A program made the translations under genes and the position numbers. 44,087 nt of DNA from a virus. Under the pieces are notes generated by a model. The model worked only from the letters and a program-made list of their open reading frames with translations, did no database searches and had not been told where the DNA came from. The stretch is taken from positions 1 through 44,087 of IMG/VR virus record IMGVR_UViG_3300034012_002569; one strand, 5' to 3'. Shown here piece by piece: positions 5,384 through 34,543 of the stretch (within the stretch, counting starts at the first letter, position 1; the number at the start of each line of letters is the position of its first letter).

Positions 5384-5388
5384 AATAA

Positions 5389-6015: not shown

Positions 6016-6022
6016 ATAATTT

Positions 6023-6051: not shown

Positions 6052-6057
6052 GATATT

Positions 6058-6939: not shown

Positions 6940-6940
6940 A

Positions 6941-7861: not shown

Positions 7862-7865
7862 ATTC

Positions 7866-9220: not shown

Positions 9221-9223
9221 ATT

Positions 9224-9847: not shown

Positions 9848-10451
9848 AGTTATTTAATGTGTTTAAGTATTTTCTTTCAAAATTGTATTGATTTAAATAT
9901 AAGTCTAAATCTTCTAAAATACAACATTCTTTATATATTTCTTTCTCATTTACTTCAGTGTAGATAATATCAAACTCATTAATTATATCTTTTAATCCTT
10001 TTAAAGCTAATATTTCAGCTCCTTGTAGATCTAAAACTAATGTGTTAAATTTACCATGTAATGAATTTTCATTAAAAATAGTTTCTAATGTTTTAGTTTT
10101 TAATTTTAATACATCGGTAACAATAACATTAGGATGTAAATCTTTATGTTCACCTAATTCTAAAATTGATGAACTTAAAGTATTATTTGTTATTTTAAAC
10201 TCAACTTCTACTCCATCTTTATCACCTATCACCTCATTTATAATGTTTAGATTAGGTATATTATCTAAATTTTGTTTAACTAAATATTCTATAGCTTCAA
10301 TCCAATATATACTATTAGAGTCTGTGTATTTTAAATATACATCTAATTCTTCACATTTATGAGCTCCAACATGTAATATTCCTTTTACATTTAATTTAAA
10401 GAAATTTATTAAATTGTCAATAATTTCTCCTGAGTATTTTTCTTTTATCAT
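9816..10451 (-). CDS. FkbM-family methyltransferase
   Basis: A 211-residue protein. GILHVGAHKCEE (24-35) is the SAM-binding motif I and VLDLQGAEILALKG near residue 150 is the FkbM hallmark D-x-(Q/E)-G-(A)-E. FkbM enzymes O-methylate sugars and polyketides. Placement among glycosyltransferases supports sugar O-methylation of a surface glycan. Its start overlaps the upstream gene by 4 nt. Confidence 0.8.
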   Translation of the reverse strand: MIKEKYSGEIIDNLINFFKLNVKGILHVGAHKCEELDVYLKYTDSNSIYWIEAIEYLVKQNLDNIPNLNIINEVIGDKDGVEVEFKITNNTLSSSILELGEHKDLHPNVIVTDVLKLKTKTLETIFNENSLHGKFNTLVLDLQGAEILALKGLKDIINEFDIIYTEVNEKEIYKECCILEDLDLYLNQYNFERKYLNTLNNYGNALYIRKH

Positions 10452-11368: not shown

Positions 11369-11868
11369 AATTTACCTTGTTTTATTTCTTCAACAATTTG
11401 AGCTATAGTCAATTTTCTACCTAATATGTTCATTTCATTTCTTACACCAGGTTGAATTAAATTCACCCAATATAAAAATTCTTCTAAACTTAAAACATAC
11501 CTTGTAGTATCTTGAATTACAGGTTCTATTCCTTCACTTAATTGTTTTTTAAAATAATTTAAAATAGTATGAGGTGTTTTAACCCACTCACATACTTCTA
11601 TCCTAGCAATAGTATAACTTTTAAAAGTATTTCGAATATACTCCTCAACTTCACGTTTATGTTGAGTGTATCTATCATGTTTATAATATATTCCTAAATT
11701 TGAAAAATATACTATATGTTGATCAGTTGGGACAGTTTTAAGTAAATTAAATTCACGAGTATATTCATTTTCATCTAAACATGAACTATTACTAACTCCT
11801 GAGGCAAAAAATACAATATCTTCTTTATCTGTAAGAACTTTGGCTACACTTCCATTTCCTATTATCAT
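11365..11868 (-). CDS. reduced NAD(P)-binding SDR-like protein
   Basis: A 167-residue protein starting MIIGNGSVAKVL, a minimal Rossmann glycine motif, followed by IVYFSNLGIYY and Y-T-Q-H-K, which fits the S...YxxxK pair of short-chain dehydrogenases. It is about half the length of a nucleotide-sugar epimerase and lacks a clear substrate domain. The ATG lies within the last codons of the preceding gene in an AAAAGTTATG context shared by many starts here. It may be a specialised or degenerate sugar epimerase. Confidence 0.55.
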   Translation of the reverse strand: MIIGNGSVAKVLTDKEDIVFFASGVSNSSCLDENEYTREFNLLKTVPTDQHIVYFSNLGIYYKHDRYTQHKREVEEYIRNTFKSYTIARIEVCEWVKTPHTILNYFKKQLSEGIEPVIQDTTRYVLSLEEFLYWVNLIQPGVRNEMNILGRKLTIAQIVEEIKQGKL

Positions 11869-12095
11869 AACTTTTCAGTAAAAATTTCAATACATAAAAC
11901 ATTTTCATCATTTATCATAACCATACTTCCATCAATACATTTAAACTTAGTAAATTGACCTTGTTTTATAGATGATGTTAATATACCATGGTATGTTCTT
12001 TTAATTCCACCTACAAAATGTATAATCTGAGTTACTACTTCTCCTTGAGTATTAACTGTAGATTTCATATTTGGATAGTCTACTTTGTTTTCCAT
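11865..12095 (-). CDS. small conserved-looking protein, unknown function
   Basis: A 76-residue protein from the ATG at 12095 (MENKVDYP); an upstream in-frame start would be TTG. It alternates hydrophobic and charged residues with TYHGILTSSIKQGQFTKFK and GSMVMINDENVLCIEIF, suggesting a small all-beta fold, perhaps Sm-like or OB-like, but I do not recognise it. It overlaps the upstream gene by 16 nt and the downstream one by 4 nt, so it is part of the operon. Confidence 0.6.
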   Translation of the reverse strand: MENKVDYPNMKSTVNTQGEVVTQIIHFVGGIKRTYHGILTSSIKQGQFTKFKCIDGSMVMINDENVLCIEIFTEKL

Positions 12096-12490
12096 GATAT
12101 TTCCCAATCTTTAAAATCAGCTGCTAAGCAATCAATTTTATAGTCTTTACGACCACCCATTACTTCTTGAATTTGATTTTTAGATGTATTACGAATACCA
12201 TTTAACCCATGAGTTAAAGCTAATGCATTTGGTCCTGATTTCCCACTTCTAACATTTGATTCATTATGCCAGATATGAAGATTCATTTGTGATAAAACTA
12301 CAATAGCACGAATTGTCTCAGCGGTGATTGGCTCTTTACATTCATCTAAATGTAATTGAATATCATGTACTATATCAGCTATTTCAGCGGCATATTCTGC
12401 TTTATGATCTGTAATGAATACTTCTTTTAACTGTGTAATTGATAGACGATCAATCAATTCACTTAATGTTGGTAAATACTTTCTTTCCAT
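12080..12490 (-). CDS. hypothetical helical protein in glycan operon
   Basis: A 136-residue mostly helical protein beginning MERKYLPTLSELIDRLSITQLKEVF. Similar PTLSELIDRL openings occur, to my recollection, in small proteins of marine phages near glycosyltransferases, but no function is known to me. It contains GPNALALTHGLNGIRN and ends WEISWKTK. It follows the GT2 gene by 6 nt. Confidence 0.6.
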   Translation of the reverse strand: MERKYLPTLSELIDRLSITQLKEVFITDHKAEYAAEIADIVHDIQLHLDECKEPITAETIRAIVVLSQMNLHIWHNESNVRSGKSGPNALALTHGLNGIRNTSKNQIQEVMGGRKDYKIDCLAADFKDWEISWKTK

Positions 12491-19378: not shown

Positions 19379-19693
19379 TTATATTTTATCAAAGTATTCA
19401 GCTTTGTATTCAACATCATTACCTTCTCTTTTTCCTGAGGCTACTATAAATTTACCATCTTTGATATATCCTACAGTTCCTTCAGGTACATAGAGTTCAG
19501 TTCCATCATATCCAGTAGGATCATCATACTCCCTAGCGTTAGGGACTGTTCTACCTTTAGGTCCAGGGTAGTCACTATATTCTTCAACATAGTACCAATC
19601 TACATTAGATCTATGGGTTGGCTTAATTTCGTTTTCAGCTAATGCTTTAACGATTTCCTCTTTGATGATTTGTTTTAATTCAGATACTTTCAT
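19379..19693 (-). CDS. small protein with MKxSxLKQIIKEEI N-terminal tag
   Basis: A 104-residue protein beginning MKVSELKQIIKEEIVKAL, nearly the same N-terminus as three proteins at 32.9-34.5 kb. The rest (HRSNVDWYYVEEYSDYPGPK, then VPEGTVGYIKDGKFIV) is unrelated to them and looks like a small beta-rich domain. The I-K-E in the tag fits the (I/L)-x-E cleavage rule of T4-like prohead proteases, so it may be a virion internal protein. The gene ends just before a UUCG terminator-like hairpin. Confidence 0.65.
   Translation of the reverse strand: MKVSELKQIIKEEIVKALAENEIKPTHRSNVDWYYVEEYSDYPGPKGRTVPNAREYDDPTGYDGTELYVPEGTVGYIKDGKFIVASGKREGNDVEYKAEYFDKI
19652..19693 (-). repeat. coding repeat for IIKEE tag, copy 1
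   Basis: The first 42 nt of the gene share most bases with the three copies at 33.5-34.5 kb. This copy is the most diverged, with changes giving V3 and E5. Confidence 0.7.
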
Positions 19694-19695
19694 AA

Positions 19696-19935
19696 TTAAG
19701 AAATATCAATCCCAGCTCTTCCTATAACATTAGCAAGATTTTGTGCTAAGTCTCTTTCATCATCAGTCCAAGTGCTATCATCATAAGCATTAGCACCATT
19801 ATCGAAACACTCAAAACATGCATTTAAAAACTCCATGTATGTTTCTTGATCAAGTCTAGGATATTCATCTTCGTCATACTGGTTTTCAGTAATTAAACCA
19901 GCCAATTTTTGCATTTTAAGAAATTCTTTATTCAT
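19696..19935 (-). CDS. small acidic protein with MQKLAGLITE N-terminal motif
   Basis: A 79-residue protein starting at the ATG at 19935 (MNKEFLKMQKLAGLITENQY); the longer reading has an unlikely His/Pro-rich leader. The N-terminal helix ends with I-T-E, another (I/L)-x-E site, and the rest is strongly acidic (DDSTWTDDERDLAQNLANVIG). It sits directly upstream of a protein bearing the IIKEE tag. It may also be packaged in the capsid; function unknown. Confidence 0.6.
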   Translation of the reverse strand: MNKEFLKMQKLAGLITENQYDEDEYPRLDQETYMEFLNACFECFDNGANAYDDSTWTDDERDLAQNLANVIGRAGIDIS

Positions 19936-19963
19936 AGTATTAGTTTTATTTTTATTATACATA

Positions 19964-20236
19964 TCAATAGTCTCCGTACATGTTAAATTTCTTTGGGGGA
20001 GGAGGTGGGGGTGGTGTTGCTTTTTCAACCACTACACTATCAATAGCATATAATTTACCTTTCATAGGTGACAATCTAAAATCACATGATAGTCCTCCAG
20101 CTTCTTCAAAATAACCTTCTAATGCTTCTGTTAATGATTTATACACATGATTAGGATCACTTAACAATACCCACTGGTCTCCCGGTGGGTATCGCTCAGC
20201 GATCAATTTTAATTCTTCTTTGACTTCGGTAGCCAT
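19964..20236 (-). CDS. small protein with polyproline tail, coupled to groEL
   Basis: A 90-residue protein whose ATG overlaps the groEL stop codon (TAATG). The body has ERYPPGDQWVLLSDPNHVYKS and a helix rich in Glu, Ala and Leu. The C-terminus has seven prolines in a row (residues 75-81), then KKFNMYGDY. I do not recognise it. Translational coupling to groEL suggests it could be a chaperonin accessory factor or substrate. Confidence 0.6.
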   Translation of the reverse strand: MATEVKEELKLIAERYPPGDQWVLLSDPNHVYKSLTEALEGYFEEAGGLSCDFRLSPMKGKLYAIDSVVVEKATPPPPPPPKKFNMYGDY

Positions 20237-21852
20237 TAGAACATACCTCCCATTCCACCCATCATATCATCCTGTTTTTTATCTTCAGGCTTATCTACGA
20301 CAGTACATTCTGTTAACAGAATTGTTCCAGCTACTGATGCTGCGTTCTCAATTGCAGTACGAGTAACTTTAGTTGGATCAATAATACCCGCGTCTTTCAT
20401 GTTAACGAATTTCTCAGTTAATAGATTATATCCTTTCCAGTTATCACTACCACCTAACTTATTAATCAAATAATAAGCCTCTTGTTCTGTAGAACCAGCG
20501 TTAGTAAGAATTTTCATAAATGGAGCACCACATGCTGTATAGACAATTGCTCCACCTACTGATTTGCGATTCTTAATTGCTTCACGAGCATATAATAAAG
20601 CAGCACCACCTCCAGGAACAATACCTTCTTCAATTGCGGCTTTAGTTGCTTGAAGCGCATCATCAACTCGGTCTTTCTTTTCTTTGACCTCAGTTTCTGT
20701 ATTTCCACCTACATGAACAATAGCTACTCCTCCGACAAATTTCGCGAGTCTTTCTTGTAGTTTTTCTTGTTCGAAAGGTGTTTTTGCTTTTTCGATTTGG
20801 AGCTGTAACTCTTCAATACGTGCTTGTATTCGTTCAGATTCTCCTCTTCCGTCAACGATTGTTGTTTCATCTTTTGTAATTGTAACTAATCGGGCTTCAC
20901 CAAACCATTTTGAATCAAAACGATCTAATTTCATACCCTTATCAGTACTAAATACCTCACCTCCTGTTAAAATTGCAATATCATCTAAAATAAGTTTTCT
21001 ACGATCACCAAAGTCAGGAGCTTTAACTGCTGCTACTTTAATTGTGCCTCTCATTTTATTAACAATAAGTGTAGCTAATGCTTCACCATCAATGTCTTCT
21101 GCAATAATAAGTAATGATTTACCTTGTGAAGATACACTTTCTAATAGTGGTAATAATTCTTTAATTGAAGTAAATTTCTTATCCGCAATCAAAATCATAG
21201 CATTCTCAAGTGTACAACTCATTGTATTGTTATCTGTAACAAAGTAATGAGATTTGTAACCACGATCAAATTGCATACCTTCTACTGTTTCAAGATATGT
21301 TTCACCTGATTTAGATTCTTCAATGTAAACTACTCCTTCACGACCTACTTTATTCATTGCTGTTGCAATCAACTCTCCTACTTCAGGATCATTATTACCT
21401 GAAATAGTAGCTACTTGTTTCAATTGATCTTCAGAGCTAATGTCTTGTGAAATACCTTTGCGTAATTCTGCAACTACATCTTTAACTGCGGCATCAATAT
21501 CACGCTTGATAGATACTGCATTTACTCCATTGTTTAAGTGCATTAAACCGGCTTTAACCATTTCTTGAGCCAACAATGTAGATGTAGTTGTACCATCACC
21601 TGCTCCTTCAGCTGTCTTAATAGCTGCTTGTTTTACAAGTTGTACACCCAATTCTTCAATTGGATCTTCAAGTGAAATGTTTTTAGCTACAGTTACACCA
21701 TCTTTTGTTGATTGAGGGTAACCATTTTGATTTGCGATAACCACATTACGACCATTTGGACCTAATGTAGACGTAACTGCGTTTGCTAGTTTGTCAATAC
21801 CAGTTACGAGTTTTTTCCTTGCTTCAGGACCGAATTCGATAATTTTACTCAT
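20236..21852 (-). CDS. groL: chaperonin GroEL
   Basis: A full-length 538-residue 60 kDa chaperonin. LGPNGRNVVI, D51 in TKDGVTVAKN and GDGTTT at 85-90 form the ATP site, and GIVPGGGAALLYA lies near 400. The C-terminus is the flexible GGMGGMF tail. The apical domain is complete. It starts 1 nt after the co-chaperonin gene ends. A phage-encoded pair could fold the major capsid protein, as T4 gp31 does with host GroEL. Confidence 0.97.
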   Translation of the reverse strand: MSKIIEFGPEARKKLVTGIDKLANAVTSTLGPNGRNVVIANQNGYPQSTKDGVTVAKNISLEDPIEELGVQLVKQAAIKTAEGAGDGTTTSTLLAQEMVKAGLMHLNNGVNAVSIKRDIDAAVKDVVAELRKGISQDISSEDQLKQVATISGNNDPEVGELIATAMNKVGREGVVYIEESKSGETYLETVEGMQFDRGYKSHYFVTDNNTMSCTLENAMILIADKKFTSIKELLPLLESVSSQGKSLLIIAEDIDGEALATLIVNKMRGTIKVAAVKAPDFGDRRKLILDDIAILTGGEVFSTDKGMKLDRFDSKWFGEARLVTITKDETTIVDGRGESERIQARIEELQLQIEKAKTPFEQEKLQERLAKFVGGVAIVHVGGNTETEVKEKKDRVDDALQATKAAIEEGIVPGGGAALLYAREAIKNRKSVGGAIVYTACGAPFMKILTNAGSTEQEAYYLINKLGGSDNWKGYNLLTEKFVNMKDAGIIDPTKVTRTAIENAASVAGTILLTECTVVDKPEDKKQDDMMGGMGGMF

Positions 21853-23272: not shown

Positions 23273-23301
23273 AATATAATAAAGATTTTTTAGAAGGCAA
23301 A
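23273..23301 (-). promoter_or_regulatory. phage promoter, variant -35 (TTTGCC-N17-TATATT), before gp45
   Basis: On the minus strand TTTGCC (23301-23296) is 17 nt from TATATT (23278-23273), and the clamp ATG follows after 6 nt. The -10 and spacing are conserved; the -35 is diverged. Confidence 0.55.
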
Positions 23302-25872
23302 GAATTTATTAACATTTGCATTCAAAGGTGGAAAATCCCATTTTAAGTCCTTGTAAAGTTCCTTTAATTTGTTTAATAGTAGTGATTCAAAAATTTCATC
23401 TACATCAATATATGTCTTAACAAACTTTTCAATCTCATCAGGTACTTTAGCATTTGGTAATCCTATTGTATCTAACTTATAAGGATTAGCTTTTAAGTTA
23501 ATAATGAATATTTTATCACCTTCTACTACTGATTCGTATTGTTTATCTAAACGTTTAAACTTTAATAAGTCATTATAACGAACAGCTGCCTTAGTATTAC
23601 TAGGTGCTTTTAATCTGAATGTACTAAACATTTCACCTGCTCTAGGAGCGTTCCTATATGATGCTATTTGTTTTACACCTGTTGGTTTACCTAATTCTCG
23701 AGGATCTAGTGTCTTAACTAATTTATAGAAGTCAATTATTGTCTGGTCTATTTCTGTTTTGGCTTTACCAAATAAAATATCTTTAATAAATTGTTCACCA
23801 AATCCTTTAAATCGTTTATTCATGTTAGACTTCATTAATTCAAGTCCTTTCATGTCTAACTCTTCAACAGCAACACCTTCCTTGTTAGTAATATACATTG
23901 CATATCTTCTCTTACCTGTAACTAAGATACCTTTAGCAATTACCTCTTGTTTTAATTGAAAATAATGTTTTTTAGGATTAATATTAAATACTTTCTTACA
24001 TAATTCATTCAAGTAGTAATTTGACTCATCTTGAATTTCAGTAGCCATTTTTAATATTAATTCATCTTTCTGGTCAGGTGTTGAGTCAGGGTATCTATGT
24101 TTTAATAAATCACCTAATTCAATATACATAGAGTCAGTATCACTAATACAAATAAATTGTTTATCTGATTTTAATTCAGTGTTTAGTTTATCATTAGCAA
24201 ATATAATACTTTCTTGAGTTAATCTTTGACCACTGTTAGTAATAGCAGCACTACAAATTAAATGTCCATCTGTATATCTCCATCCATTCTTAGCAAATGT
24301 ACCATACATAGCGTTTTGTAAGATCTTAAATGAGTGTTGAAACAAATCATATAATTTATAGTTAACCCAGTCTTCAGATTTACCCGCTGTTTTCTTTAAA
24401 CCTCTATAATGTTCTCGTTTATCAAACCAGCCTTCTAAAATTTTAGCAACTACACTTTGTTCATCAGTTCTAAACATAGCGCCTGAAGCTGATAGTGTGA
24501 ACTCATTATCTTCAATTAGTTTAATTAACTTACCAATTGATATTTGAGCTGCTTGTAATGTGTAGTTCTTTTTATTTAGTTTTTCAACTGTTACTACTTC
24601 ATTAGGATCTCGTTCTTTAAGTTTTTCTAAACTATGATTTTGTTCATAGGTAGGATTTAAAGTAACAATTCTACCTACTAATGTTTCAATTCCTAAATTA
24701 AGTGATTTAATGATTGAAGGATATAGTGAAGTAAAGTCTAAGTCAATTACATCAAAGTATAGACCTGGTATTGGTTCTAATAAGTAACCACCAGCATATG
24801 TTGAGTTGGCTACTTTACGAGACAGATTATGAGTTGTTGGTTTATTAGGTGAAATAATACCTTCACGTCTCAAATGCTTTAATATAGCACCTTCATTCAT
24901 TACAGTGTTATAATAGACTGACTCATAAGGTATATTACAGATATGAGAGATCATAACTGTTAATTCAATAAACTTTAATTTATCTTCTAGTTTTTCTAGA
25001 ATCTCAACGTCTCGTAAGTTATAATCAATAAAAGTATTTAAATCATTTTTAAACAATGTATTCAAATTGCCTTCATATTCAATTTTACCTAACCCAACAT
25101 ATTTGGTTCCAATGTCACCTAATTTATATGATGGTTCCTCTTTCATAATGTACTTCTTATGAAGTAACATATAGTCTAAATGATTCACACCTCCAATTTT
25201 AACTTGGTTTTCACCATTAAAATCACGTGCTTCAACTCTACCTATCGGAGATAAACGGCTTACCTCGTCTGCACCTACAACTTGTGACATTCGGTAGTAT
25301 AAGTATGGTAAGTCGAAGTATGCCGAGTTATAGCCGACTAATATGGTGGGATCTAACTCTTCATACTTGGATAAAAACTTACCTATTAACTCTCGTTCTG
25401 AACCACAAGGTATAATTATTTTACCATCCTGATTCGTTTCAGGTATTTGTTTTGACTTATCAACAATAAAACATATCTTCTGTTTAGTAGTCATGTCTAT
25501 TAAAGCTATAGATGTTAAAGGCATAGGAGCGGACCTAATATACTCAGGTGTTAATGCACCTCCCATTTCAATCTCGATATCTATATAAACTATGTTATGC
25601 CAAGAAGGAACTACATCATCAAATTTGTAATATAATTCTCGTAACACATACAATGACTTATCAATATCTTTTTCTAATAAATCAGGATCGTTTTTGTCTA
25701 ATTTTTTAGTAGGTATAGCCCATCCACCTGTTAATACAGGTTTAGCTCCATCTTGCCATTCATTTACTCTTTTCCAGTAAGTAGGCTGGAATTGGAAATC
25801 CATCCAGCCTTGCTTATCGTCTCGTAAATGGTAGGTGTAGGTTTGAAAGTCGTAGTATATTGCTTGATACAT
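23290..25872 (-). CDS. 43: family B DNA polymerase with 3'-5' exonuclease (gp43-like)
   Basis: An 860-residue replicative polymerase. Exonuclease motifs: D98-I-E100, N182-SAYFD187 and Y284-xxx-D288. Polymerase motif A is DLDFTSLYPS (377-386), motif B K516-ILQ-N520-AMYG, and motif C ISDTDS with D578 and D580. It is close to T4 gp43 in length (898). The C-terminal residues NKFFAF resemble a clamp-interacting tail. It is one base from the MazG-like gene. Confidence 0.97.
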   Translation of the reverse strand: MYQAIYYDFQTYTYHLRDDKQGWMDFQFQPTYWKRVNEWQDGAKPVLTGGWAIPTKKLDKNDPDLLEKDIDKSLYVLRELYYKFDDVVPSWHNIVYIDIEIEMGGALTPEYIRSAPMPLTSIALIDMTTKQKICFIVDKSKQIPETNQDGKIIIPCGSERELIGKFLSKYEELDPTILVGYNSAYFDLPYLYYRMSQVVGADEVSRLSPIGRVEARDFNGENQVKIGGVNHLDYMLLHKKYIMKEEPSYKLGDIGTKYVGLGKIEYEGNLNTLFKNDLNTFIDYNLRDVEILEKLEDKLKFIELTVMISHICNIPYESVYYNTVMNEGAILKHLRREGIISPNKPTTHNLSRKVANSTYAGGYLLEPIPGLYFDVIDLDFTSLYPSIIKSLNLGIETLVGRIVTLNPTYEQNHSLEKLKERDPNEVVTVEKLNKKNYTLQAAQISIGKLIKLIEDNEFTLSASGAMFRTDEQSVVAKILEGWFDKREHYRGLKKTAGKSEDWVNYKLYDLFQHSFKILQNAMYGTFAKNGWRYTDGHLICSAAITNSGQRLTQESIIFANDKLNTELKSDKQFICISDTDSMYIELGDLLKHRYPDSTPDQKDELILKMATEIQDESNYYLNELCKKVFNINPKKHYFQLKQEVIAKGILVTGKRRYAMYITNKEGVAVEELDMKGLELMKSNMNKRFKGFGEQFIKDILFGKAKTEIDQTIIDFYKLVKTLDPRELGKPTGVKQIASYRNAPRAGEMFSTFRLKAPSNTKAAVRYNDLLKFKRLDKQYESVVEGDKIFIINLKANPYKLDTIGLPNAKVPDEIEKFVKTYIDVDEIFESLLLNKLKELYKDLKWDFPPLNANVNKFFAF

Positions 25873-26367
25873 TTATTTATCTAAAAACTGTTTAAGATTC
25901 GGTCTAAAATAGTTTATTGACTTCATTACTTTACGGTCTCGAGAACGATACACTATATAATAATCACCTTGTTTTTCATAGTGGCATTTTTCACCTTGTT
26001 CTTGTTCTCGAACACGAACTGTAAAGTTAGCTTCCTCTTCTGTTTTACAAACTTTACTCATATTTGAAGCTTGAACCTCAGCATATGCAGGTAAAATTTG
26101 ATCTTTTAGACCATGAAGCATAGCTCCATTACCTAGTGACACATAAGTAATATCACAAAGTGCATCTAATACTTCTACAACATTTCCTGTTTCACAAGCG
26201 TCTTTATATTCTTCTAGTTCCTCTAGAATAAAATTATAAACAAACATCCACTCATCTTTAGGTGGAATAGTAGGTTCATAATTATTTGGTTTACCCATTG
26301 TAGCGTTAAATTCCTCTACCTCGCTAACAAATGGAACATAATTTTCTTTAGATTGAGACATGACCAT
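25873..26367 (-). CDS. MazG-like / phosphoribosyl-ATP pyrophosphohydrolase-like protein
   Basis: A 164-residue protein. EVEEFNATMG, then FILEELEEYKDA and VVEVLDALCDITYVSLGNG, follow the EExxE...ExxD metal-binding pattern of all-alpha NTP pyrophosphohydrolases. AYAEVQASNMSKV continues as in the HisE-like phage subgroup. It may clean up non-canonical or alarmone nucleotides. Two in-frame ATGs (26367 and 26361) both overlap folE. Confidence 0.75.
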   Translation of the reverse strand: MVMSQSKENYVPFVSEVEEFNATMGKPNNYEPTIPPKDEWMFVYNFILEELEEYKDACETGNVVEVLDALCDITYVSLGNGAMLHGLKDQILPAYAEVQASNMSKVCKTEEEANFTVRVREQEQGEKCHYEKQGDYYIVYRSRDRKVMKSINYFRPNLKQFLDK

Positions 26368-27043
26368 TATTTATTTTAAGTGAATCAAAAAATTCTTTAC
26401 GTGCTAAATTATCGTTTTCCATAAACACACCTGATGCTTTAGTAGTGACCATTGCTGCACCTTGATGTTTAATACCTCTACAACTAACACAATTGTGAGT
26501 AGCAACTACAGTTACAATAACACCTAAGTTCTCTTCACAAACTTTATTTACTGCTTGATGAATAGCTGCTGTTAATTGTTCTTGGATAGCTCCTCTACGA
26601 CCAAAATGTTCTACAATGCGATTTAGTTTTGATAAACCGATTACTCGACCTTCAGCACCTGCAATATAACCAATATGAACTACACCTCTAATTGTTTGGT
26701 GATGATGTGAACACATTGAAGTTAAATTGATATTACGTTCAATAATTACTCCATCATAACCATCTGATGGGAATGAAGTAATGTCAGTAAATCCATTATA
26801 ACGACCAGCCCATAAATCATTAACATATGCTTTAGCTACACGGCGAGGTGTATCTGCTGAGTTAGGATCATTTTGCCAGTCACATTTTAATGCTGATAAG
26901 AAATTACCAAAATGTACTGTGGCTTCTTCAATCATTGATTGTTTTTCATCATCCGTTAATGGACGATCTGCGGCAGCACCATTTGCTAAACCTGTCTTCA
27001 CACACTCAATATCGTTGTGAAATTTTCTTCTATTATTTTCCAT
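26348..27043 (-). CDS. folE: GTP cyclohydrolase I (FolE)
   Basis: A 231-residue FolE. Zinc ligands lie in MCSHHHQT (C111, H113/H114) and NCVSCRGIKH (C185, C188). DTPRRVAKAYVNDLW and GLSKLNRIVEHFGRR are the GTP-binding blocks. It converts GTP to dihydroneopterin triphosphate, the first step of 7-deazaguanine synthesis. Its ATG lies 7 nt after a strict promoter. The neighbouring queE, queD, queC and dpdA genes argue for preQ0 rather than folate. Confidence 0.93.
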   Translation of the reverse strand: MENNRRKFHNDIECVKTGLANGAAADRPLTDDEKQSMIEEATVHFGNFLSALKCDWQNDPNSADTPRRVAKAYVNDLWAGRYNGFTDITSFPSDGYDGVIIERNINLTSMCSHHHQTIRGVVHIGYIAGAEGRVIGLSKLNRIVEHFGRRGAIQEQLTAAIHQAVNKVCEENLGVIVTVVATHNCVSCRGIKHQGAAMVTTKASGVFMENDNLARKEFFDSLKINNGHVSI

Positions 27044-27050
27044 ATAACCT

Positions 27051-27079
27051 AATATATTAATTTATTTCTAGATAGCCAA
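27051..27079 (-). promoter_or_regulatory. phage promoter TTGGCT-N17-TATATT before folE
   Basis: On the minus strand TTGGCT (27079-27074), 17 nt, TATATT (27056-27051), AGGTTAT, then the folE ATG. The -35 is inside the last codons of the hpt gene, so it forms an internal promoter. It shares the 16-mer TATATTAGGTTATATG with the 13.1 kb promoter. Confidence 0.75.
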
Positions 27080-27577
27080 AATATATGGCAAACTTCTCTT
27101 TTTACCTAAATCATCATCCATTCCAAATCCAACAACCCATTCATCTGTAATTTCAAATCCATAAAGTGAACCTACAGGTATATTTACTTCATTGATGTAA
27201 CGCTTAATCAGAGTAACTATTTGGACGCTTGCTGGGTCAAATTGATAAAAATGATTTGCTAATGCATTCATTGTTATTCCTGAGTCGTAGATGTCATCTA
27301 CAATATAAACATGTTTATTAGTGACATCTACTGATTTGTCTAGTATCATATTTAAATCGCCTCGTTCTCTACCTTCATATGACCTTACTTTTACAAAATC
27401 ACATTCTGGGTCTAGTGAAGATAATTTTTCAGCTAGTTTAGAATAGAAAACAAATCCACCATTTAGTACACATACTAAAACAATAGGAATTTTTTCTGAT
27501 TTATGGCGATTTAAAATTTGTGTAGCTAAGAAATCAATTCTTGCCTCGATGACTTCATTTTCAAATAATACTTTCAT
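27068..27577 (-). CDS. hpt: hypoxanthine/guanine phosphoribosyltransferase
   Basis: A 169-residue type I phosphoribosyltransferase. VYIVDDIYDSGITM (91-103) is the PRPP-binding motif, VCVLNGGFVFYSKL (35-48) the PPi loop, and WVVGFGMDDD the purine-binding end. It makes IMP or GMP from free base and PRPP. It lies between folE and queE. DpdA-type base exchange releases guanine, so a salvage role is plausible. It overlaps the thioredoxin-like gene by 17 nt. Confidence 0.9.
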   Translation of the reverse strand: MKVLFENEVIEARIDFLATQILNRHKSEKIPIVLVCVLNGGFVFYSKLAEKLSSLDPECDFVKVRSYEGRERGDLNMILDKSVDVTNKHVYIVDDIYDSGITMNALANHFYQFDPASVQIVTLIKRYINEVNIPVGSLYGFEITDEWVVGFGMDDDLGKKRSLPYILAI

Positions 27578-27836
27578 GTAACTCTTTTATTGAATGTAAC
27601 CCTGGGTAATGTTTAATTTTTCCTTTGTTGGATAATATTACGTGAGGGTAATAATCTATAGCAAACGCTGTTTCTAATTCCTCATTTTCATTAATATTAA
27701 TAATTTCAAATCCAAGTTTTTCAGCGATTTCTTGAACCATAGGATTAGCTACTTTACATCCTCCACACCAATCAGCGTAGAAGAATGTAACAGTATTTTT
27801 TGTTTTTAATGCTTCAGTTAATAATTTTTTATCCAT
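27561..27836 (-). CDS. thioredoxin-like protein (CGGC)
   Basis: A 91-residue thioredoxin fold with FFYADWCGGCK (C24, C27) and the cis-proline segment IDYYPHVILSNKG. Slightly shorter than E. coli thioredoxin (108). It may reduce the phage ribonucleotide reductase or QueE-linked substrates. Start and stop overlap neighbours in the deazaguanine island. Confidence 0.85.
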   Translation of the reverse strand: MDKKLLTEALKTKNTVTFFYADWCGGCKVANPMVQEIAEKLGFEIININENEELETAFAIDYYPHVILSNKGKIKHYPGLHSIKELHESII

Positions 27837-28618
27837 TATACTTCTCTTTTAGTGTCAAATGCTATAATATGTTCTCTACCTGTAAAATTATAACCATTAT
27901 CTCTACAAAAGTCCATCACCATAGGATATACTCGAATTAATTCATCTCTTGTATCACCAGGAGGCATTAACCAAGTCTTACGTTTTGGAATATCCATTTC
28001 AACTCTAAACGCTTCAATCTCAGTCCATGCTTCAGACATTTCAATAGGATTACAAACAGGTTTGAAATGATAGTCATGATGGTATTCTAATGTCTTTTTT
28101 ATCGCTTCTTTATCGAGACGAAATTTGTTATGTTGGTCCACCATTTTTTGGTCAGCAACTTTACCTTGCGGAGTAATAGTCCCAATTGCAGGAACGCTGT
28201 TACTAAACTTAGGACTAAGAGATATAAGACCAATAGGGTAGTCAGTTTCAATGAAATGAGAACCTTCTGTTTCAATTGTGATAAATAGGCCACGTTTTTC
28301 TGCTAAATGGGTTAATTCATTTACTAAGTCAGGATGCATTGTAGGTGAACCACCTGTTAGCATCATTTCTCTAATGAATGGGTTATTGTCATAAATAGCA
28401 ATAATATCGTTAAACGTATATTTTCCTTTTTCAGGATGAATACTTGTATACCAACTATCACACCATCCACCATCTCCAAACCAACATCTGTGAGTACATC
28501 CTGTAGTTCTAATAACTACTGTAGGCATCCCAGCTCTACTACCTTCAGATTGTACAGCTGTGTATAACTCTACAATAGGTAATTTTTTATTATAATCTTC
28601 TATTCTTCCTGGTTTCAT
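27836..28618 (-). CDS. queE: 7-carboxy-7-deazaguanine synthase QueE (radical SAM)
   Basis: A 260-residue QueE-like radical SAM protein. AVQSEGSRAGMPTVVIRTTGC and MLTGGSPTMHPDLV are QueE features. The cluster cysteines are C41-x3-C45-x7-C53, where the third cysteine is displaced by an inserted FGDGG relative to the usual CxxxCxxC. It turns CPH4 into CDG. It overlaps the thioredoxin-like gene by 1 nt. The insertion is a lineage-specific change. Confidence 0.88.
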   Translation of the reverse strand: MKPGRIEDYNKKLPIVELYTAVQSEGSRAGMPTVVIRTTGCTHRCWFGDGGWCDSWYTSIHPEKGKYTFNDIIAIYDNNPFIREMMLTGGSPTMHPDLVNELTHLAEKRGLFITIETEGSHFIETDYPIGLISLSPKFSNSVPAIGTITPQGKVADQKMVDQHNKFRLDKEAIKKTLEYHHDYHFKPVCNPIEMSEAWTEIEAFRVEMDIPKRKTWLMPPGDTRDELIRVYPMVMDFCRDNGYNFTGREHIIAFDTKREV

Positions 28619-29121
28619 AATATTTCGTTTAAATTGATTCCTTGTTTATCTTTATCACTAAAAACAACATCATTATCTATATTATTGAAGCAAAATCTAT
28701 CTATAATAGACTTAACTTCTGGTATTGAGGACCATAATATATTTATTTCATTTTTAGGTGAGTATTCTTCATCTACTAAATAATTAACTATAGAATTAGG
28801 AGTTAAAGTTAAAAACCCATGAGCATATCCTTTAGGAACATATAATCCATCTCCTTCTTCTAGAACAAATGAATCTACTTTTTTATAAGTCTCACTATCT
28901 TTTCTAAGGTCAATAATTATATCTACTATCCTACCTTGGATTACAAATAATAATTTACTTTGTTGTTTAGGAGAAGATTGTAGATGCATTCCTCTAAAAG
29001 TATAAATACTATTATTAACAATAACATTAGATTGAGTCCAATTATCATTTAATTCAATTGGGGTAAATAATCCTCTATTATCTTTAAAAATAGGTTGTTT
29101 TATTAAATACGGAGTTTCCAT
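28615..29121 (-). CDS. RmlC-like cupin epimerase inside the queuosine-type cluster
   Basis: A 168-residue cupin with FRGMHLQ (R43, H46) and VPKGYAHGFLTL, as in dTDP-4-keto-rhamnose 3,5-epimerases. I chose the ATG at 29121, just after the queD stop; a start at 29136 would overlap queD. It is a second copy of the family seen at 7.9 kb but the two are diverged. Its place between queE and queD is unexpected: it may be a sugar enzyme in transit or act on a modified base. Confidence 0.8.
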   Translation of the reverse strand: METPYLIKQPIFKDNRGLFTPIELNDNWTQSNVIVNNSIYTFRGMHLQSSPKQQSKLLFVIQGRIVDIIIDLRKDSETYKKVDSFVLEEGDGLYVPKGYAHGFLTLTPNSIVNYLVDEEYSPKNEINILWSSIPEVKSIIDRFCFNNIDNDVVFSDKDKQGINLNEIL

Positions 29122-29122
29122 A

Positions 29123-29593
29123 TTATATTTCTCCATAGATAGCTGAGTTTTTATTATGCTCTTTGAATTCTACTTGAACAACACGTACTCTATTATTTGT
29201 TTCTTCTAATACAAATTTATTTACTTTATCGTAAATGTATTTAGCAAACTGTTCTGCTCCTGTAGCTGGTATTACTCTTAATTGGATAAGTTTATTTTTA
29301 TCCATGTCTTCAAATAATTCTAAATAAGGGTCATCTTCAGCCATAATTACAGTATGATCAAACATATGATCCATCCATGCTTTAGGATTCATACCATCAA
29401 TAGTACCTTTAGCTCTTTTCATACCACCAAAGTCCCATACCCAATTTCTCTCATCTAATTCACCTTCAAATGTAATTTTAAATGAAATACCATAACCATG
29501 TAGAAATTGACAGTGTGTTCCATCTGCTCTCCATTGACGAAATACAGTACTAAACCCATCAAATATTTTTGTTGATTGGAATTTTGTTTTCAT
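29123..29593 (-). CDS. queD: 6-carboxy-tetrahydropterin synthase-like QueD (altered zinc site)
   Basis: A 156-residue PTPS/QueD-fold protein. C28 and H32 of the C-x3-HGH motif are present, but HGH is HGY (Y34) and the first zinc histidine (FSAAH in QueD) is F18 in FSTVF. DHTVI and the C-terminal VRVVQVEFKEH block are conserved. It would make CPH4 from the FolE product. An alternative start at 29605 overlaps the thioredoxin gene. Confidence 0.82.
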   Translation of the reverse strand: MKTKFQSTKIFDGFSTVFRQWRADGTHCQFLHGYGISFKITFEGELDERNWVWDFGGMKRAKGTIDGMNPKAWMDHMFDHTVIMAEDDPYLELFEDMDKNKLIQLRVIPATGAEQFAKYIYDKVNKFVLEETNNRVRVVQVEFKEHNKNSAIYGEI

Positions 29594-29594
29594 A

Positions 29595-29846
29595 TTATCC
29601 TTCATTTAACCAAGTTATAATTTGTGAGTGTGATTTTACTCCTGTAAAACGTTTTAGTTCTTGTCCATTTTCTACTAGGATAACTGTAGGTACATTTCGT
29701 ACATTAGCAGCCTCTAATAATGATGGATCAGTGTAATCAATATTTTGTTTACGGACTGGGATTTGTCTTGCAATTTCATCCATAATTGGGCCTAAGGTTT
29801 GGCATGGATTACACCAATTTGCTGTGTAGTAAAATAATTCTTTCAT
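29595..29846 (-). CDS. thioredoxin-like protein (CNPC)
   Basis: An 83-residue minimal thioredoxin/glutaredoxin-like protein. YTANWCNPCQTLGP has C12 and C15, and VRNVPTVILVENG is the cis-proline region. It is the second small redoxin in this island, beside the CGGC one at 27.6 kb, and may serve nrdA or nrdB. It begins inside the last codon of the tiny membrane protein gene. Confidence 0.85.
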   Translation of the reverse strand: MKELFYYTANWCNPCQTLGPIMDEIARQIPVRKQNIDYTDPSLLEAANVRNVPTVILVENGQELKRFTGVKSHSQIITWLNEG

Positions 29847-30010
29847 ACTAATTCTTCGATTATACCTAATATTTCACTAGCTATTAATACACTAGCAGCT
29901 ATAGGTAAGTTAATAAATAATAATACATATCCTGCTAATCGTAAAAATGATTTAGCGAAACTAATTTGTTGATGTTTTTTAGGATCTGGGTATTTCATAG
30001 ATTTAAGCAT
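29843..30010 (-). CDS. tiny single-pass membrane protein
   Basis: A 55-residue protein (MLKSMKYPDPKKHQQ..., or 51 residues from the inner ATG at 29998). A charged N-terminus precedes a hydrophobic stretch, LAGYVLLFINLPIAASVLIA, then SEILGIIEELV. One transmembrane helix is predicted. The ATG overlaps the stop of the preceding small gene and its stop overlaps the next ATG (ATGA). Function unknown. Confidence 0.65.
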   Translation of the reverse strand: MLKSMKYPDPKKHQQISFAKSFLRLAGYVLLFINLPIAASVLIASEILGIIEELV

Positions 30011-30167
30011 TATCTTCTGTTTCTGGGTTTTGTCGTTGGATTTGCTCTTTTAACATAGCCATAAACTTACGTTCCATGATTAATCTATTTTTAGCGGTTG
30101 TTTCATTACGTTTTGTAACTCGCTTGTTATGGGCTTTCTTCCCACCTCGTTTTTTAGATGTTGGCAT
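30003..30167 (-). CDS. tiny very basic protein
   Basis: A 54-residue protein starting MPTSKKRGGKKAHNKR, with 14 Lys/Arg in the first 34 residues and an acidic end (PETEDNA). It could bind DNA or RNA. Its start overlaps the end of queC by 14 nt. No homologue is recognised. Confidence 0.55.
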   Translation of the reverse strand: MPTSKKRGGKKAHNKRVTKRNETTAKNRLIMERKFMAMLKEQIQRQNPETEDNA

Positions 30168-31002
30168 TATTGTGATTATTTAAAATTGTTTCTACATGTT
30201 CTACTACTGTTTCCCAACTTACAGGACCTGTCTCATCAGCATATTCAACTGGGTCTGGTTTTCCAAGTTTCATAAATGCTTCAACTCGTTCTACTGATGA
30301 TGCTGATTTGTAATCACTGTAACAGCTGAAAAAGTAATAAATTGGTTTGTATGATGTGTTTGTACGTTTGTATACTTCATTAAAGTCTAAGCCTAAGCAT
30401 TCAACACATGAATTACCATCTTGTAAAATACCAAACTTATCAGTATGTAAATAAGGTGTATAATGATATACTTTTTCAGCACCCCAATTACCCATCTTAA
30501 ATGCTTCAAAATCAGCATCTCTAAATTCTTGACGACAATCAGGATAAATAGCATGATCACCTGCATGTATTCCCATTGCAATAGCGCATTCAGTATCTTT
30601 TTGTTCAGCAATTGATAATGCAACTGCTTGAATAATAGAACTAAAAATCTTATTACGATTAGGAACTACTGTTGCTTTCATATTCTCTTCAGCATAGTGT
30701 CCTTCAGGTACTTCTTCACCTCCAGTTACTAATGCTGAGTTTAATAGTTCAGATAGGCCATCTAGTTTGATTATTTGATGTTTTATATAATATGGGTATT
30801 CTGCTGTTTTAGACTCTTCATCTAAAATACAATATCCATTAATGTATTTAACTAAATCTTTAGCGCGCTCTAATTCTATATTATGTTTTTGTCCATAATC
30901 AAATGATAATGCTGTAACTTCATAGCCATTGGCGAGGAGATGAAGCAATAGTGTAGAACTATCCATTCCTCCACTTAATGATAATACTGCTTGTTTCTTC
31001 AT
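30154..31002 (-). CDS. queC: 7-cyano-7-deazaguanine synthase QueC (altered zinc site)
   Basis: A 282-residue QueC. The PP-loop is SGGMDSS at 10-16, then FDYGQKH, ATVVPNRN and DCRQEF as in the family. The usual C-terminal zinc site (SCY...CGxCxxC) is reduced: C227 remains in SCY, but the following cysteines read KSASS (232-236). C199 and C202 (SCVEC) might substitute. It makes preQ0 from CDG. A variant promoter lies 18 nt upstream. Confidence 0.9.
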   Translation of the reverse strand: MKKQAVLSLSGGMDSSTLLLHLLANGYEVTALSFDYGQKHNIELERAKDLVKYINGYCILDEESKTAEYPYYIKHQIIKLDGLSELLNSALVTGGEEVPEGHYAEENMKATVVPNRNKIFSSIIQAVALSIAEQKDTECAIAMGIHAGDHAIYPDCRQEFRDADFEAFKMGNWGAEKVYHYTPYLHTDKFGILQDGNSCVECLGLDFNEVYKRTNTSYKPIYYFFSCYSDYKSASSVERVEAFMKLGKPDPVEYADETGPVSWETVVEHVETILNNHNNANI

Positions 31003-31151
31003 AATTTATTTGCTATTTGTAATATAATATCTGTATCCTCGTTTGACAAGCTAAGACGACCTTTCTTTAGCTTTTTTATAGCATCATTCCATTCTTGTTC
31101 ATACAAATTTCCTTGTGTAGGGGCTACTAACCCATGCCATACATCTTCCAT
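30999..31151 (-). CDS. tiny protein upstream of queC
   Basis: A 50-residue acidic protein beginning MEDVWHGLVAPTQGNLYEQEW and ending ILQIANKL. Its stop overlaps the queC ATG (ATGA) and the start context is AGAGTTATG, so it is likely translated. It spans the variant queC promoter. Unknown function. Confidence 0.6.
   Translation of the reverse strand: MEDVWHGLVAPTQGNLYEQEWNDAIKKLKKGRLSLSNEDTDIILQIANKL
31021..31049 (-). promoter_or_regulatory. phage promoter, variant -35 (TTGTCA-N17-TATATT), before queC
   Basis: On the minus strand TTGTCA (31049-31044) and TATATT (31026-31021) are 17 nt apart, with 18 nt to the queC ATG. It lies inside the tiny upstream gene. Confidence 0.5.
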
Positions 31152-31156
31152 AACTC

Positions 31157-31963
31157 TTATTTTATAATTTTATCTAAACGGTTAATTTTTCTAAATTTAT
31201 TTACATTGTAATGTAAAGCATACCAGTTAATATCTTCAGAGGCACGATTCATAACATGGTCAATTTTAGTAATTGGTTTCTCATCCAAACCATGTTCTTT
31301 ATACATTTTATCTTCCATCGCAGCCATAATTGGATTTGAAGTATCTATACTTTCAATGAATGGGTAATTCTGGTGGAATAAAAACTCTTGAGGAGCAGCA
31401 CATCCAAGTAAGTGAACTCTATCAGTAGATTGAATAACATCGCTATTATACAACTTACCTATAACATTTACTCGACCCATTGCAGTAGAAATTGCTGGTA
31501 ATATATGAGTAAAATGCTCTTTATAATACCCGGCACCATATGAAAATGCTATTTTCTTATAACCTAATGATTTATATTTTAAATAACATTCAGCTGCTTC
31601 TTCAATATTAGTTGCTTGAACAACCGCTACTTTAGTAGTATAGTAAGGTAACTTAATTTTAGCCCATTCTGCAGCATTATCAATAGATGCTTGCATATCT
31701 TGCCATACATCAGGTACAATAAATTCATTTGGTTCAAAGTAATTAACCCAATGTAATAGACGTTCAGTATCATAAGCATGTCCTAGTTCATGTAAACTAT
31801 TATCCATGATAATGTAACGACCATCTTTCTTTGCTTGGTCAAAATACTTAAAATATTCATACTCACTATCTAGTAAGTGAGGCAAACAATAATCGTAATC
31901 ATTGAATGTTTGTGAGACGTTTAGTACTGCTAATGGTACTTCATGTGAGACTTTTATTTTCAT
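31157..31963 (-). CDS. dpdA: DpdA-like DNA-guanine transglycosylase (TGT fold)
   Basis: A 268-residue TIM-barrel, tRNA-guanine-transglycosylase-like protein, shorter than bacterial TGT (about 370). D54 in IIMDNSLHELG fits the TGT base-binding Asp region, IAFSYGAG the glycine loop, VHLLGCAAPQEF (183-194) the HLLGxGxP block, and D207 in IESIDTSNP the nucleophile. No zinc cysteine cluster. It would exchange guanine in DNA for a 7-deazaguanine. A strict promoter lies 9 nt before the ATG. Confidence 0.75.
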   Translation of the reverse strand: MKIKVSHEVPLAVLNVSQTFNDYDYCLPHLLDSEYEYFKYFDQAKKDGRYIIMDNSLHELGHAYDTERLLHWVNYFEPNEFIVPDVWQDMQASIDNAAEWAKIKLPYYTTKVAVVQATNIEEAAECYLKYKSLGYKKIAFSYGAGYYKEHFTHILPAISTAMGRVNVIGKLYNSDVIQSTDRVHLLGCAAPQEFLFHQNYPFIESIDTSNPIMAAMEDKMYKEHGLDEKPITKIDHVMNRASEDINWYALHYNVNKFRKINRLDKIIK

Positions 31964-32889: not shown

Positions 32890-33513
32890 TTAAATCATAT
32901 CATCTTCTTGTTTAAATGATTTAGATAGATCTGACATATGTAATGAATCAACAACATCTTTAATATATTTTAACTCTCTAGATGAAAGTTTACTTTCAAT
33001 ATAGTCAGCAATTTCTTTTCTAATTGCATCAAATTCAAAGGAGGATGCTGAGTTATATTTTTCAAACATATCTTGTAATACTTGATCGTTTTTAAAACGA
33101 AGGAGTATTGGTCTAATATACTTATTAAATTTACGATCACTTATTTTGTTTTTTAATTTTCTAATAGTATCACCTATTGGACCATATTGGATATTATCTA
33201 GAGCTAAAGCAGTACCACCAACAATACCAGCTGTTGCTAATACTAATCCAACACCTCCTACTAGCACAGTACCCATAGCATCTAGCACATAGTTTTCATT
33301 TATTGGATTTTCATCTTTAGGACTTTCATCATCTGGGTAAAGTATATCCATTACAGCATTTACATCAACATTTACTCCTAATTGTTGTATAGCTTTTAAA
33401 GTATCCATGATACCGTTTTGATATGCTGAAGGAGTTTGTTCTTTACCTGGGTAGTCAAATCCAAGTTCGTTTATCTCTTCTTTGATGATTTGTTTAAGTT
33501 GTGATAGTTTCAT
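32890..33513 (-). CDS. IIKEEI-tagged membrane-associated protein
   Basis: A 207-residue protein beginning MKLSQLKQIIKEEINELGF. A central hydrophobic segment (AMGTVLVGGVGLVLATAGIVGG, about 79-100) could span a membrane, and the C-terminal part is helical and charged (SSRELKYIKDVVDSLHMSDL). The tag is shared with the next two genes upstream. A capsid-packaged protein that enters the host membrane on injection is possible. Confidence 0.65.
   Translation of the reverse strand: MKLSQLKQIIKEEINELGFDYPGKEQTPSAYQNGIMDTLKAIQQLGVNVDVNAVMDILYPDDESPKDENPINENYVLDAMGTVLVGGVGLVLATAGIVGGTALALDNIQYGPIGDTIRKLKNKISDRKFNKYIRPILLRFKNDQVLQDMFEKYNSASSFEFDAIRKEIADYIESKLSSRELKYIKDVVDSLHMSDLSKSFKQEDDMI
33472..33513 (-). 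repeat. coding repeat for IIKEE tag, copy 2
   Basis: The 42 nt opening the gene nearly match the openings of the next two genes upstream, including silent positions. Confidence 0.75.
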
Positions 33514-33514
33514 A

Positions 33515-33865
33515 TTAGTCTTTTGTGTATCGGTTAATTAAATCTCCTAAAGATACATATGATCTGCCTCCACTATATCCTCGAGCTTCTGACATAGCTC
33601 TTAACAGCATTTTTGCTTCTGGTGATGCTTCCATTTGCTTAACTATGTTCTTAAGTTCAGATTCATATGCTAATATTTTTGGAGCCATTTCTACAGCTAG
33701 GTCAATTACTTTTTGACCATATCTCTTAACCATATCATCATCATACTGAGTCTTTACACCAGCATATCCATATAAATCAGCTACTTTAGATTCTAGATTA
33801 CTAGCTTCATTTAAAGAATCTTTAATTTCTTCTTTGATGATTTGTTTTAGTTGAGATAGTTTCAT
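33515..33865 (-). CDS. IIKEEI-tagged helical protein
   Basis: A 116-residue protein beginning MKLSQLKQIIKEEIKDSLNEAS, followed by helices (AVEMAPKILAYESELKNIVKQM) and ending with a glycine- and serine-rich segment (ARGYSGGRSYVSLG). Only the tag is shared with the neighbours. It starts 1 nt after a neighbouring tagged gene ends. Confidence 0.65.
   Translation of the reverse strand: MKLSQLKQIIKEEIKDSLNEASNLESKVADLYGYAGVKTQYDDDMVKRYGQKVIDLAVEMAPKILAYESELKNIVKQMEASPEAKMLLRAMSEARGYSGGRSYVSLGDLINRYTKD
33824..33865 (-). repeat. coding repeat for IIKEE tag, copy 3
   Basis: A 42 nt opening differing by one base from copy 4 (Q-L codon region TTGAG versus TTGTG on the plus strand). Confidence 0.75.
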
Positions 33866-33871
33866 AACAAC

Positions 33872-34543
33872 TTACTTCTTAGGAGTAATAACCATTTCAC
33901 CTTTAGCGTTAGTGGTTATAGTGTATTTTTGATCAAAATCTGGTGAGTTAACTAATTTAGCCATGTCACTACCAGTGTATGTTTTCGCAGGGCTAGCTGG
34001 CGCGTTCTTTGCCGCGAGCCAAGCTTTTGCATCATCTCTAGAGTTAGAACCTACATCTTTGGTTGTACCAAATTTATTAACAAAATCCGCTAATTCATTA
34101 TATGATCTTATAACATCATCTGGTTCAATTTCGTAAAGATTGTAATCTATACCATAAAAAATATCATTAAGCTTCTGAATCTGTTTTGCTAAATTTTTAT
34201 CTTTAAGATAATCAGTAATATCATCCTCAACTGTTACTGAAGGTGGGAAAGTATCTGTATTTTTAGATATAAAATCTATAAACTTTTTATCTCCTTTAGC
34301 ATGAGCATCAGCTAATTTCTGAAGAAACTTTGTCACATATTTAAAAGAGCCTGGTTTTTCGTCAGATATAGTTTCATAACCACTCTCTTCTTTACTTAAA
34401 CCTGGTTGAGGTGTTGTTAATACATTAAATATATTATCAAGTTTAGTAAAATCTAAAGGTTTTAATGCTGGGGTAGCAGGTGCTTCTTTTAAAGAATTTT
34501 GAATTTCTTCTTTGATGATTTGTTTTAGTTGTGATAGTTTCAT
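33872..34543 (-). CDS. IIKEEI-tagged protein, proline/alanine-rich linkers
   Basis: A 223-residue protein beginning MKLSQLKQIIKEEIQNSLKEAP, then ATPALKPLDF, an acidic helical middle (FLQKLADAHAKGDKKFIDFI) and a C-terminal TYTGSDMAKLVNSPDFDQKYTITTNAKGEMVITPKK. The tail resembles internal virion proteins only in general character. First of the tagged run, 30 nt after nrdA ends. Confidence 0.65.
   Translation of the reverse strand: MKLSQLKQIIKEEIQNSLKEAPATPALKPLDFTKLDNIFNVLTTPQPGLSKEESGYETISDEKPGSFKYVTKFLQKLADAHAKGDKKFIDFISKNTDTFPPSVTVEDDITDYLKDKNLAKQIQKLNDIFYGIDYNLYEIEPDDVIRSYNELADFVNKFGTTKDVGSNSRDDAKAWLAAKNAPASPAKTYTGSDMAKLVNSPDFDQKYTITTNAKGEMVITPKK
34502..34543 (-). repeat. coding repeat for IIKEE tag, copy 4
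   Basis: The 42 nt opening is nearly identical to copies 2 and 3, while the sequence right after it diverges. Confidence 0.75.

Follow-up and report, generated by a model that had tools for sequence, protein, structure and literature searches.

What does a nearly identical N-terminus do on proteins that otherwise share no similarity? The question is raised by three adjacent genes, together with a fourth elsewhere, in a 44,087-base IMG/VR virus fragment that encodes a T4-like replication set (the window, i.e., the whole stretch of DNA that was analysed). A sequence-only reading had taken this N-terminus for a candidate capsid-targeting peptide, cut off by a protease like gp21 of T4. Here, the tag is followed from the window to its relatives, to the bodies behind it, and to the head genes of the phages that carry it.

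Tagged genes of the window

The tagged proteins consist of an N-terminal tag, assigned to class A, C or D, and a body; a slash marks the end of a tag, a join or a cut site.

32890..33513, minus strand: tagged gene 1, 207 aa; class A tag at residues 1-16 (33466-33513), MKLSQLKQIIKEEINE, with INE at 14-16 as its [IL]xE
33515..33865, minus strand: tagged gene 2, 116 aa; class A tag at residues 1-20 (33806-33865), MKLSQLKQIIKEEIKDSLNE/A
33872..34543, minus strand: tagged gene 3, 223 aa; class A tag at residues 1-20 (34484-34543), MKLSQLKQIIKEEIQNSLKE/A
19379..19693, minus strand: tagged gene 4, 104 aa, N-terminus MKVSELKQIIKEEI; class A tag at residues 1-20 (19634-19693), MKVSELKQIIKEEIVKALAE/N
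19696..19935, minus strand: tagged gene 5, 79 aa counted from an internal ATG, starting MNKEFLKMQKLAGLITENQ; class C tag at 19885-19935, MNKEFLKMQKLAGLITE/N

The N-terminus MKLSQLKQIIKEEI is identical in the three adjacent genes (14/14 residues), and 19379-19693 differs from it at two residues. The four class A bodies, taken from residue 25 on, each form a family of their own and show no BLAST similarity to one another, which bears out the initial observation of a near-identical N-terminus on four otherwise unrelated proteins. At the DNA level, 38-41 of 42 bases of the tag agree among the three adjacent genes and 34-37 of 42 with 19379-19693; upstream of the ATG, the DNA of the four genes is without similarity. 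The sequence-only reading had described 42 conserved nucleotides followed by instant divergence; the conservation stands, but the end at base 42 does not hold throughout, since the DNA similarity between 33515-33865 and 33872-34543 extends to approximately base 62 (EEI..SL.EA), and L18-x-E20 is kept across the 80 families described below. The tags of the window end as ...SLKE/A (33872), ...SLNE/A (33515), ...ALAE/N (19379) and, earlier, INE/L at residues 14-16 (32890). Searches of the tagged window proteins against Pfam and PHROGs returned no significant domain.

The gene at 19696-19935 adjoins 19379-19693, was absent from the initial list of tagged genes, and carries the second tag class. Its mechanical ORF has a TTG start at 20028; the true start is probably the internal ATG.

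A composite organization is suggested for 32890-33513, in which a second I-N-E (residues 69-71) stands before a Gly-rich hydrophobic stretch, GTVLVGGVGLVLATAGIVGGTALAL. Because its short relatives (70-74 aa) stop where this I-N-E and the stretch start, the protein looks like a tagged mini-protein fused to a second body. From about the second I-N-E onward (the latter two thirds), the body is 95% identical to L098, whose start is class C-like. The structure model of 32890-33513 was poor (mean pLDDT of 46.5) and was set aside, its quality being too low for use.

Recurrence, length and end of the class A tag

A collection of the phage genes that bear this tag, as suggested in the sequence-only reading, was made in IMG/VR. 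The class A DNA pattern was found in at least 118 stretches and the same pattern reversed in 1; the recurrence of the tag is therefore not due to chance. The class A set, composed of the proteins from these pattern matches and those from five genomes, comprises 170 proteins in 80 body families without similarity past residue 24, which places the tag on at least 80 dissimilar bodies. Conservation at residues 2, 6, 9, 10, 12, 13 and 14 is partly imposed by the search pattern, whereas residues 15-30 are unconstrained; among the latter, Leu is present at position 18 in 54% and Glu at position 20 in 60% of the families, and beyond these no position rises above background. An [LIVM]xE motif ending at residues 15-26 occurs in 66 of the 80 families, compared with 17% of equal body windows (binomial p ~6e-37), and a clear motif of this kind is missing in the other 14. 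From the L18/E20 conservation and the frequency of [LIVM]xE, the class A unit is judged to span about 20 residues and to end in L-x-E, instead of spanning 14 residues, with the consensus MKxSxLRQIIKEEIxxxLxE.

Among cultured phages, the tag is almost missing, since tblastn with its 22 residues against 50,697 phage records gave a single weak match (E 2); the string 'IIKEEI' did not occur in the papers searched.

Further tag classes in the same genomes

Comparison of the first 24 residues within each of five tagged genomes revealed clusters of shared N-termini, while the internal-segment control gave 0, 0, 0, 2 and 0 pairs. The recurrent tags are class A, class C (MNKEFLKMQKLAGLITE or MKKQLNEQFRRMQKLAGIITE) and class D (MIKLxxLLKE), all ending in [LI]xE. 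Class C was found on 64 mutually dissimilar bodies and class D on 47, in searches that fixed [LI]xE, so that the E is tested independently by class A alone. Each of the five genomes encodes 4-8 strong class A proteins, plus class C and/or D. When class C was used as a query against phage records, the sole match was Flavobacterium phage immuto (Immutovirus), which is also the sole cultured relative found.

Across whole genomes, [LI]xE is enriched near N-termini (1.4-1.7 fold), but this weak evidence was not relied on, since T4 gives 1.5 and other motifs rise too. In one family of approximately 340 residues (L164:155-1186; G004:19155-20189), the start resembles class A and a class C motif lies at about residue 150, as would be expected if a long propeptide preceded the cargo.

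Exchange of tags on homologous bodies

Homologous bodies are found in nature behind different tags, in A/C, A/D and C/D pairs. Two bodies of the window are involved, i.e., that of 19379-19693, which follows tag A in the window and tag C in L349, and that of 32890-33513, through its L098 homologue. The position of the join is evident from G030:136730 (A, ...ISKVLNE/EKIPFF) and L344 (C, ...IITEGQLNE/EKIPFF), in which the same body is joined exactly after L-N-E, and from the A/C pair of L172 and L385, in which the join lies near LKE/ and LNE/. Further exchange pairs are L059/L304 (A/C), L104/L392 (A/C) and L094/L481 (A/D). Some apparent A/C pairs were excluded because they represent the same locus at 100% identity, i.e., one protein with two start codons.

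Gene slots can be compared with the relative G006, whose identity to the window is 94% across 39 ORFs. In its clamp loader slot, one class A and one class C gene are kept with different bodies; in the slot matching 19696-19935 (99795-100307), the similarity spans only about 22 residues, which correspond to the tag. In the ribonucleotide reductase slot, 32890 is kept, and another tagged gene replaces 33515 and 33872. Judged from the sequences compared, tags of several classes are interchangeable on homologous bodies.

Structure and cargo

In an AlphaFold2 model of 19379-19693 (mean pLDDT of 84.7), a helix at residues 3-21, which corresponds to the tag, is followed by a small beta domain; a Foldseek search of the model against the PDB gave no match at E < 0.001. 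A Pfam domain was present in few of the 146 tagged proteins scanned. The recognizable bodies include an Fe/Mn superoxide dismutase (L470:5355-6029) with the class D tag MIKLANLLKE, in which residues 1-14 lie ahead of the part that is homologous to enzymes of solved structure; a zeta-toxin-like kinase beginning at residue 11 (L155); a class D protein with an ART-PolyVal ADP-ribosyltransferase domain (L404; E 2e-10); and a tagged 5'-deoxynucleotidase NT5C (G030:40833), to which immuto gp087 is similar, with a different start that contains LLLE. G006:52901 gave a weak alpha/beta hydrolase match.

Prohead protease and head module

The window itself is a fragment without a gene for an S77 protease, i.e., the prohead core protease of MEROPS S77 (Pfam PF03420), which was counted when over the curated cut-off. 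The sequence-only reading had named the absence of a gp21-like protease from the rest of the genome as a point that would count against it; this is answered by the 94%-identical G006, which encodes an S77 protease with conserved catalytic motifs (E 7e-30, and 7e-36 in immuto). The motifs GELxHP and GxSSRG of T4 gp21 are conserved in the S77 protease of the clade. Among contigs of at least 60 kb, S77 was detected in 18 of 23 with class A and 16 of 20 with class C/D (34 of 43 in total) and in none of nine controls, eight of which had been chosen with an unrelated 16-mer and the ninth with the reversed pattern; across all contig sizes, the counts were 26 of 45 tagged vs. 2 of 27 control contigs (Fisher p ~1e-5 for each comparison). 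Nine tagged, S77-negative contigs were checked and look like fragments, because gp23 is missing from them as well.

The gene order terminase-portal-x-core protein-x-protease-scaffold-gp23 is observed in G006, G004, G026, G030 and immuto, where the pieces were recovered; in immuto, the protease is gp070 and the scaffold gp067. A class C gene of G006 (155607-156449) is situated between those of the protease and the scaffold. In the small protein encoded between the portal and protease genes (L126:25355-25576, immuto gp072) and in its homologues, the N-terminus is helix-like, closes with LKE, IKE or LEE, and leads into xS[AVT]TG; its position makes this protein a likely counterpart of the T4 prohead core proteins gp67/gp68. 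The end of this N-terminus, e.g., LKE/ESATGTG, is close to the gp23 site VVE/SSATG. In T4 gp23, the glutamate of FLTE/A, after which the protein is cut, aligns with VVE/A, VVE/S or VSE/A in the clade.

Proposed mechanism and rival explanations

The best reading of these data would be a capsid-targeting system of the T4 type, here expanded and modular. We consider it highly probable that the shared N-terminus is a T4-type capsid-targeting propeptide, with core docking, an S77 cut and ejection, and with interchangeable tags on fast-changing cargo. The tag would dock the protein on the prohead core during head assembly, probably as an amphipathic helix; the gp21-like S77 protease would cut after the glutamate of [LIV]xE at the tag end, and the body thus freed inside the head would leave with the DNA by ejection. 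Several interchangeable tags (A, C and D) would load a large, fast-changing cargo set, as is the case with the variable internal proteins of T-even phages. That the bodies are packaged, cleaved, ejected and active early in infection is what we infer by analogy with T4; a literature search for virion proteome or N-terminal data on any phage of the clade, including immuto, found none.

The central claim of the sequence-only reading, i.e., that a gp21-like protease removes a capsid-targeting peptide, is well supported, though indirectly, by S77 in relatives, the S77 enrichment, the [LI]xE ends, the tag exchange and the ipII/ipIII plan of T4, and is revised in its details. The tag spans about 20 residues and belongs to one of at least three interchangeable classes. 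The cut site is revised as well. The tag had been said to end at I-K-E (10-12), with this motif as the candidate site of trimming; this position is disfavoured because L-x-E at 18-20 is conserved and because of the swap join, and the cut would probably fall after L-x-E at 18-20, or after I-N-E at 14-16 in 32890-33513. It is possible, although doubtful, that the tag classes are in addition separate prohead-core addresses, differing in partner, copy number or exit order, which would deliver an ordered, exchangeable arsenal of about a dozen effectors before phage gene expression; the effector pool would then include the superoxide dismutase, ADP-ribosyltransferase, nucleotidase and zeta-toxin-like kinase.

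Several observations stand against the capsid-targeting reading, among them the 14 class A families without a clear [LIVM]xE and the failure to find homology to the T4 CTS. Most of the cargo is without a known domain; 78% of class C bodies are acidic, in contrast to the basic internal proteins of T4 (PMC9026906); and a class-A-like N-terminus is present on a conserved gene beside the baseplate genes of immuto (gp114, 81525-81944) and on related genes in the other genomes. The last of these also favours a tag that loads the virion at the tail tube, baseplate hub or neck instead of the prohead core, with exit along with the tail. We regard this as quite improbable, as the tag ends follow the [LI]xE rule of the head protease, the G006 class C gene is found among the head genes, between those of protease and scaffold, with the helix-LKE protein between portal and protease, and the T4 precedent is the head core. 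No more probable is a tag that directs proteins elsewhere in the infected cell (membrane, chaperonin or replication compartment), unrelated to virions. Three of the tagged genes of the window lie beside replication genes and not head genes, and an amphipathic helix could bind a membrane or a chaperone, with GroEL/ES encoded by the phage; however, T4 ipI, ipII and ipIII are likewise far from the T4 head genes, and an intracellular address leaves unexplained the LxE end, the S77 association and the exchange among unrelated tags that all end in [LI]xE.

Two further explanations fare worse. The close DNA agreement of the three adjacent tags and the over-representation of the codons CTA and ATC in tags would suit a recombination cassette or regulatory DNA element of 42-60 repeated bases, but across the 80 families the class A tag is conserved at the protein level with free synonymous change, and tags A, C and D, unrelated as DNA, replace one another on homologous bodies, which makes such an element very improbable. 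Tandem duplication would be expected to leave identical starts in adjacent genes; yet ordinary paralogues diverged past recognition, or a chance recurrence of helical N-termini, are the remotest of the explanations considered here, given that the bodies include recognizable unrelated enzymes (the four named above), that the reversed pattern occurs once against at least 118 stretches, and that near-identity drops to none in one step at the tag end.

Genome context and significance

The tagged phages are a T4-like group that probably infects Bacteroidota, the host group being taken from immuto. Because genes at 26348-31963 match immuto FolE, QueE, QueD, QueC and the annotated DNA-guanine transglycosylase DpdA, the phage of the window probably makes 7-deazaguanine-modified DNA; as a matter of speculation, a link between modified DNA and packaged anti-restriction proteins, as in T4, is possible. 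A block of sugar-nucleotide and glycosyltransferase-like genes at 82-12107 is largely missing from the 94%-identical G006 and is read as a variable surface-sugar island. The large DNA polymerase gene at 23290-25872 is common to the window, G006 and G004 and has no match in immuto, in which annotated family A polymerase genes stand in place of this type; the comparison indicates polymerase replacement within the clade. An ORF at the contig end (43548-44060, TTG start) has no match in five relatives.

If capsid targeting is true of these tags, a short motif predicts which hypothetical proteins of a widespread, almost uncultured group are packaged and delivered to the host, with approximately 190 protein families, very few of which have a known domain, as candidates for delivery, and the tags serve as a sequence handle for finding them. 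The natural tag-swap pairs would mark the boundary between address and cargo, and the tags would be candidate signals for loading chosen proteins into these phage heads, a use to which the T4 CTS is already put.

Comparison with known systems

The function of the T4 CTS, its cleavage motif and the processing of Alt are covered in PMC9026906, PMC3012670 and PMC5694885. Ten N-terminal residues of T4 IPIII suffice for incorporation, of which 4 and 7 are important in targeting and 8 and 10 in processing (PMC9026906). The internal proteins are diverse, the CTS being their only conserved part; one of them, IPI, blocks a modification-dependent restriction enzyme (PMC3012670). Alt is a packaged ADP-ribosyltransferase processed by gp21 (PMC5694885, PMC9026906). 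The CTS of IPI, IPII and IPIII (MKTYQEFIAE/A) and the Alt propeptide (ITE-6) resemble the clade tags in being short N-terminal propeptides on diverse proteins with an [LI]xE end (PMC3012670, PMC9026906). T4 and the clade are also alike in the gp20/gp21/gp22/gp23-type head module and in the combination of a constant tag with a variable body. The within-genome comparison of N-termini, run on T4 as a positive control, recovers the ipII/ipIII pair with MKTYQEFIAEA, in agreement with the earlier statement that T4 internal proteins bear a short N-terminal tag ending in I-A-E; the T4 scaffold starts with MLKEQLIAEA.

A class A profile gave no T4 protein above 6 bits, and homology to the T4 CTS MKTYQEFIAE was not found; class D (MIKLxxLLKE) equals it in length (10 residues) and ends in LxE, yet shows no clear homology to it. 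By analogy, the tags would work like the T4 CTS, but they are not filed as its homologue. The T4 CTS has 10 residues, whereas class A has about 20 and is predicted to be helical; T4 has about four tagged genes, whereas the clade has several tag classes per genome and, by the criteria used, approximately 9-12 tagged genes in each uncultured genome, immuto having somewhat fewer. Tag exchange between classes is a further feature in which the clade differs from T4.

The proteins gp53 and gp54 of SPN3US, which are giant-phage prohead-protease substrates, share their N-terminal 15 residues, MANFVKSKLARESVE, and are like the clade in bearing an identical N-terminal propeptide and protease motifs on head proteins (PMC5694885). 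Unlike the tagged proteins of the clade, they are paralogues in a single phage, follow an A-x-E rule and belong with a MEROPS S80-type protease.

Immuto shares with the clade divergent A, C and D tags, the S77 protease, portal, scaffold and gp23, and differs from its uncultured relatives in a more divergent class A (MKKSQLRQIIKEAL). Its class A tags are carried by gp080, gp094 and gp095 and its class C tags by gp083 and gp230. An additional tag, MENFDLKKFLVENKLT.NSKLLKE, occurs in four of its genes (L124:1803-2318; L126:5806-6354, 19631-20632 and 20632-20931), and the tagged genes of immuto are annotated as hypothetical or with unrelated names. The start of G030:86763-87626 is similar to this additional tag.

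ART-PolyVal is among the polyvalent domains, which travel with phage DNA, and is likewise present in the class D protein L404. Polyvalent proteins are giant and multi-domain; L404, in contrast, is small and carries its single domain behind a tag.
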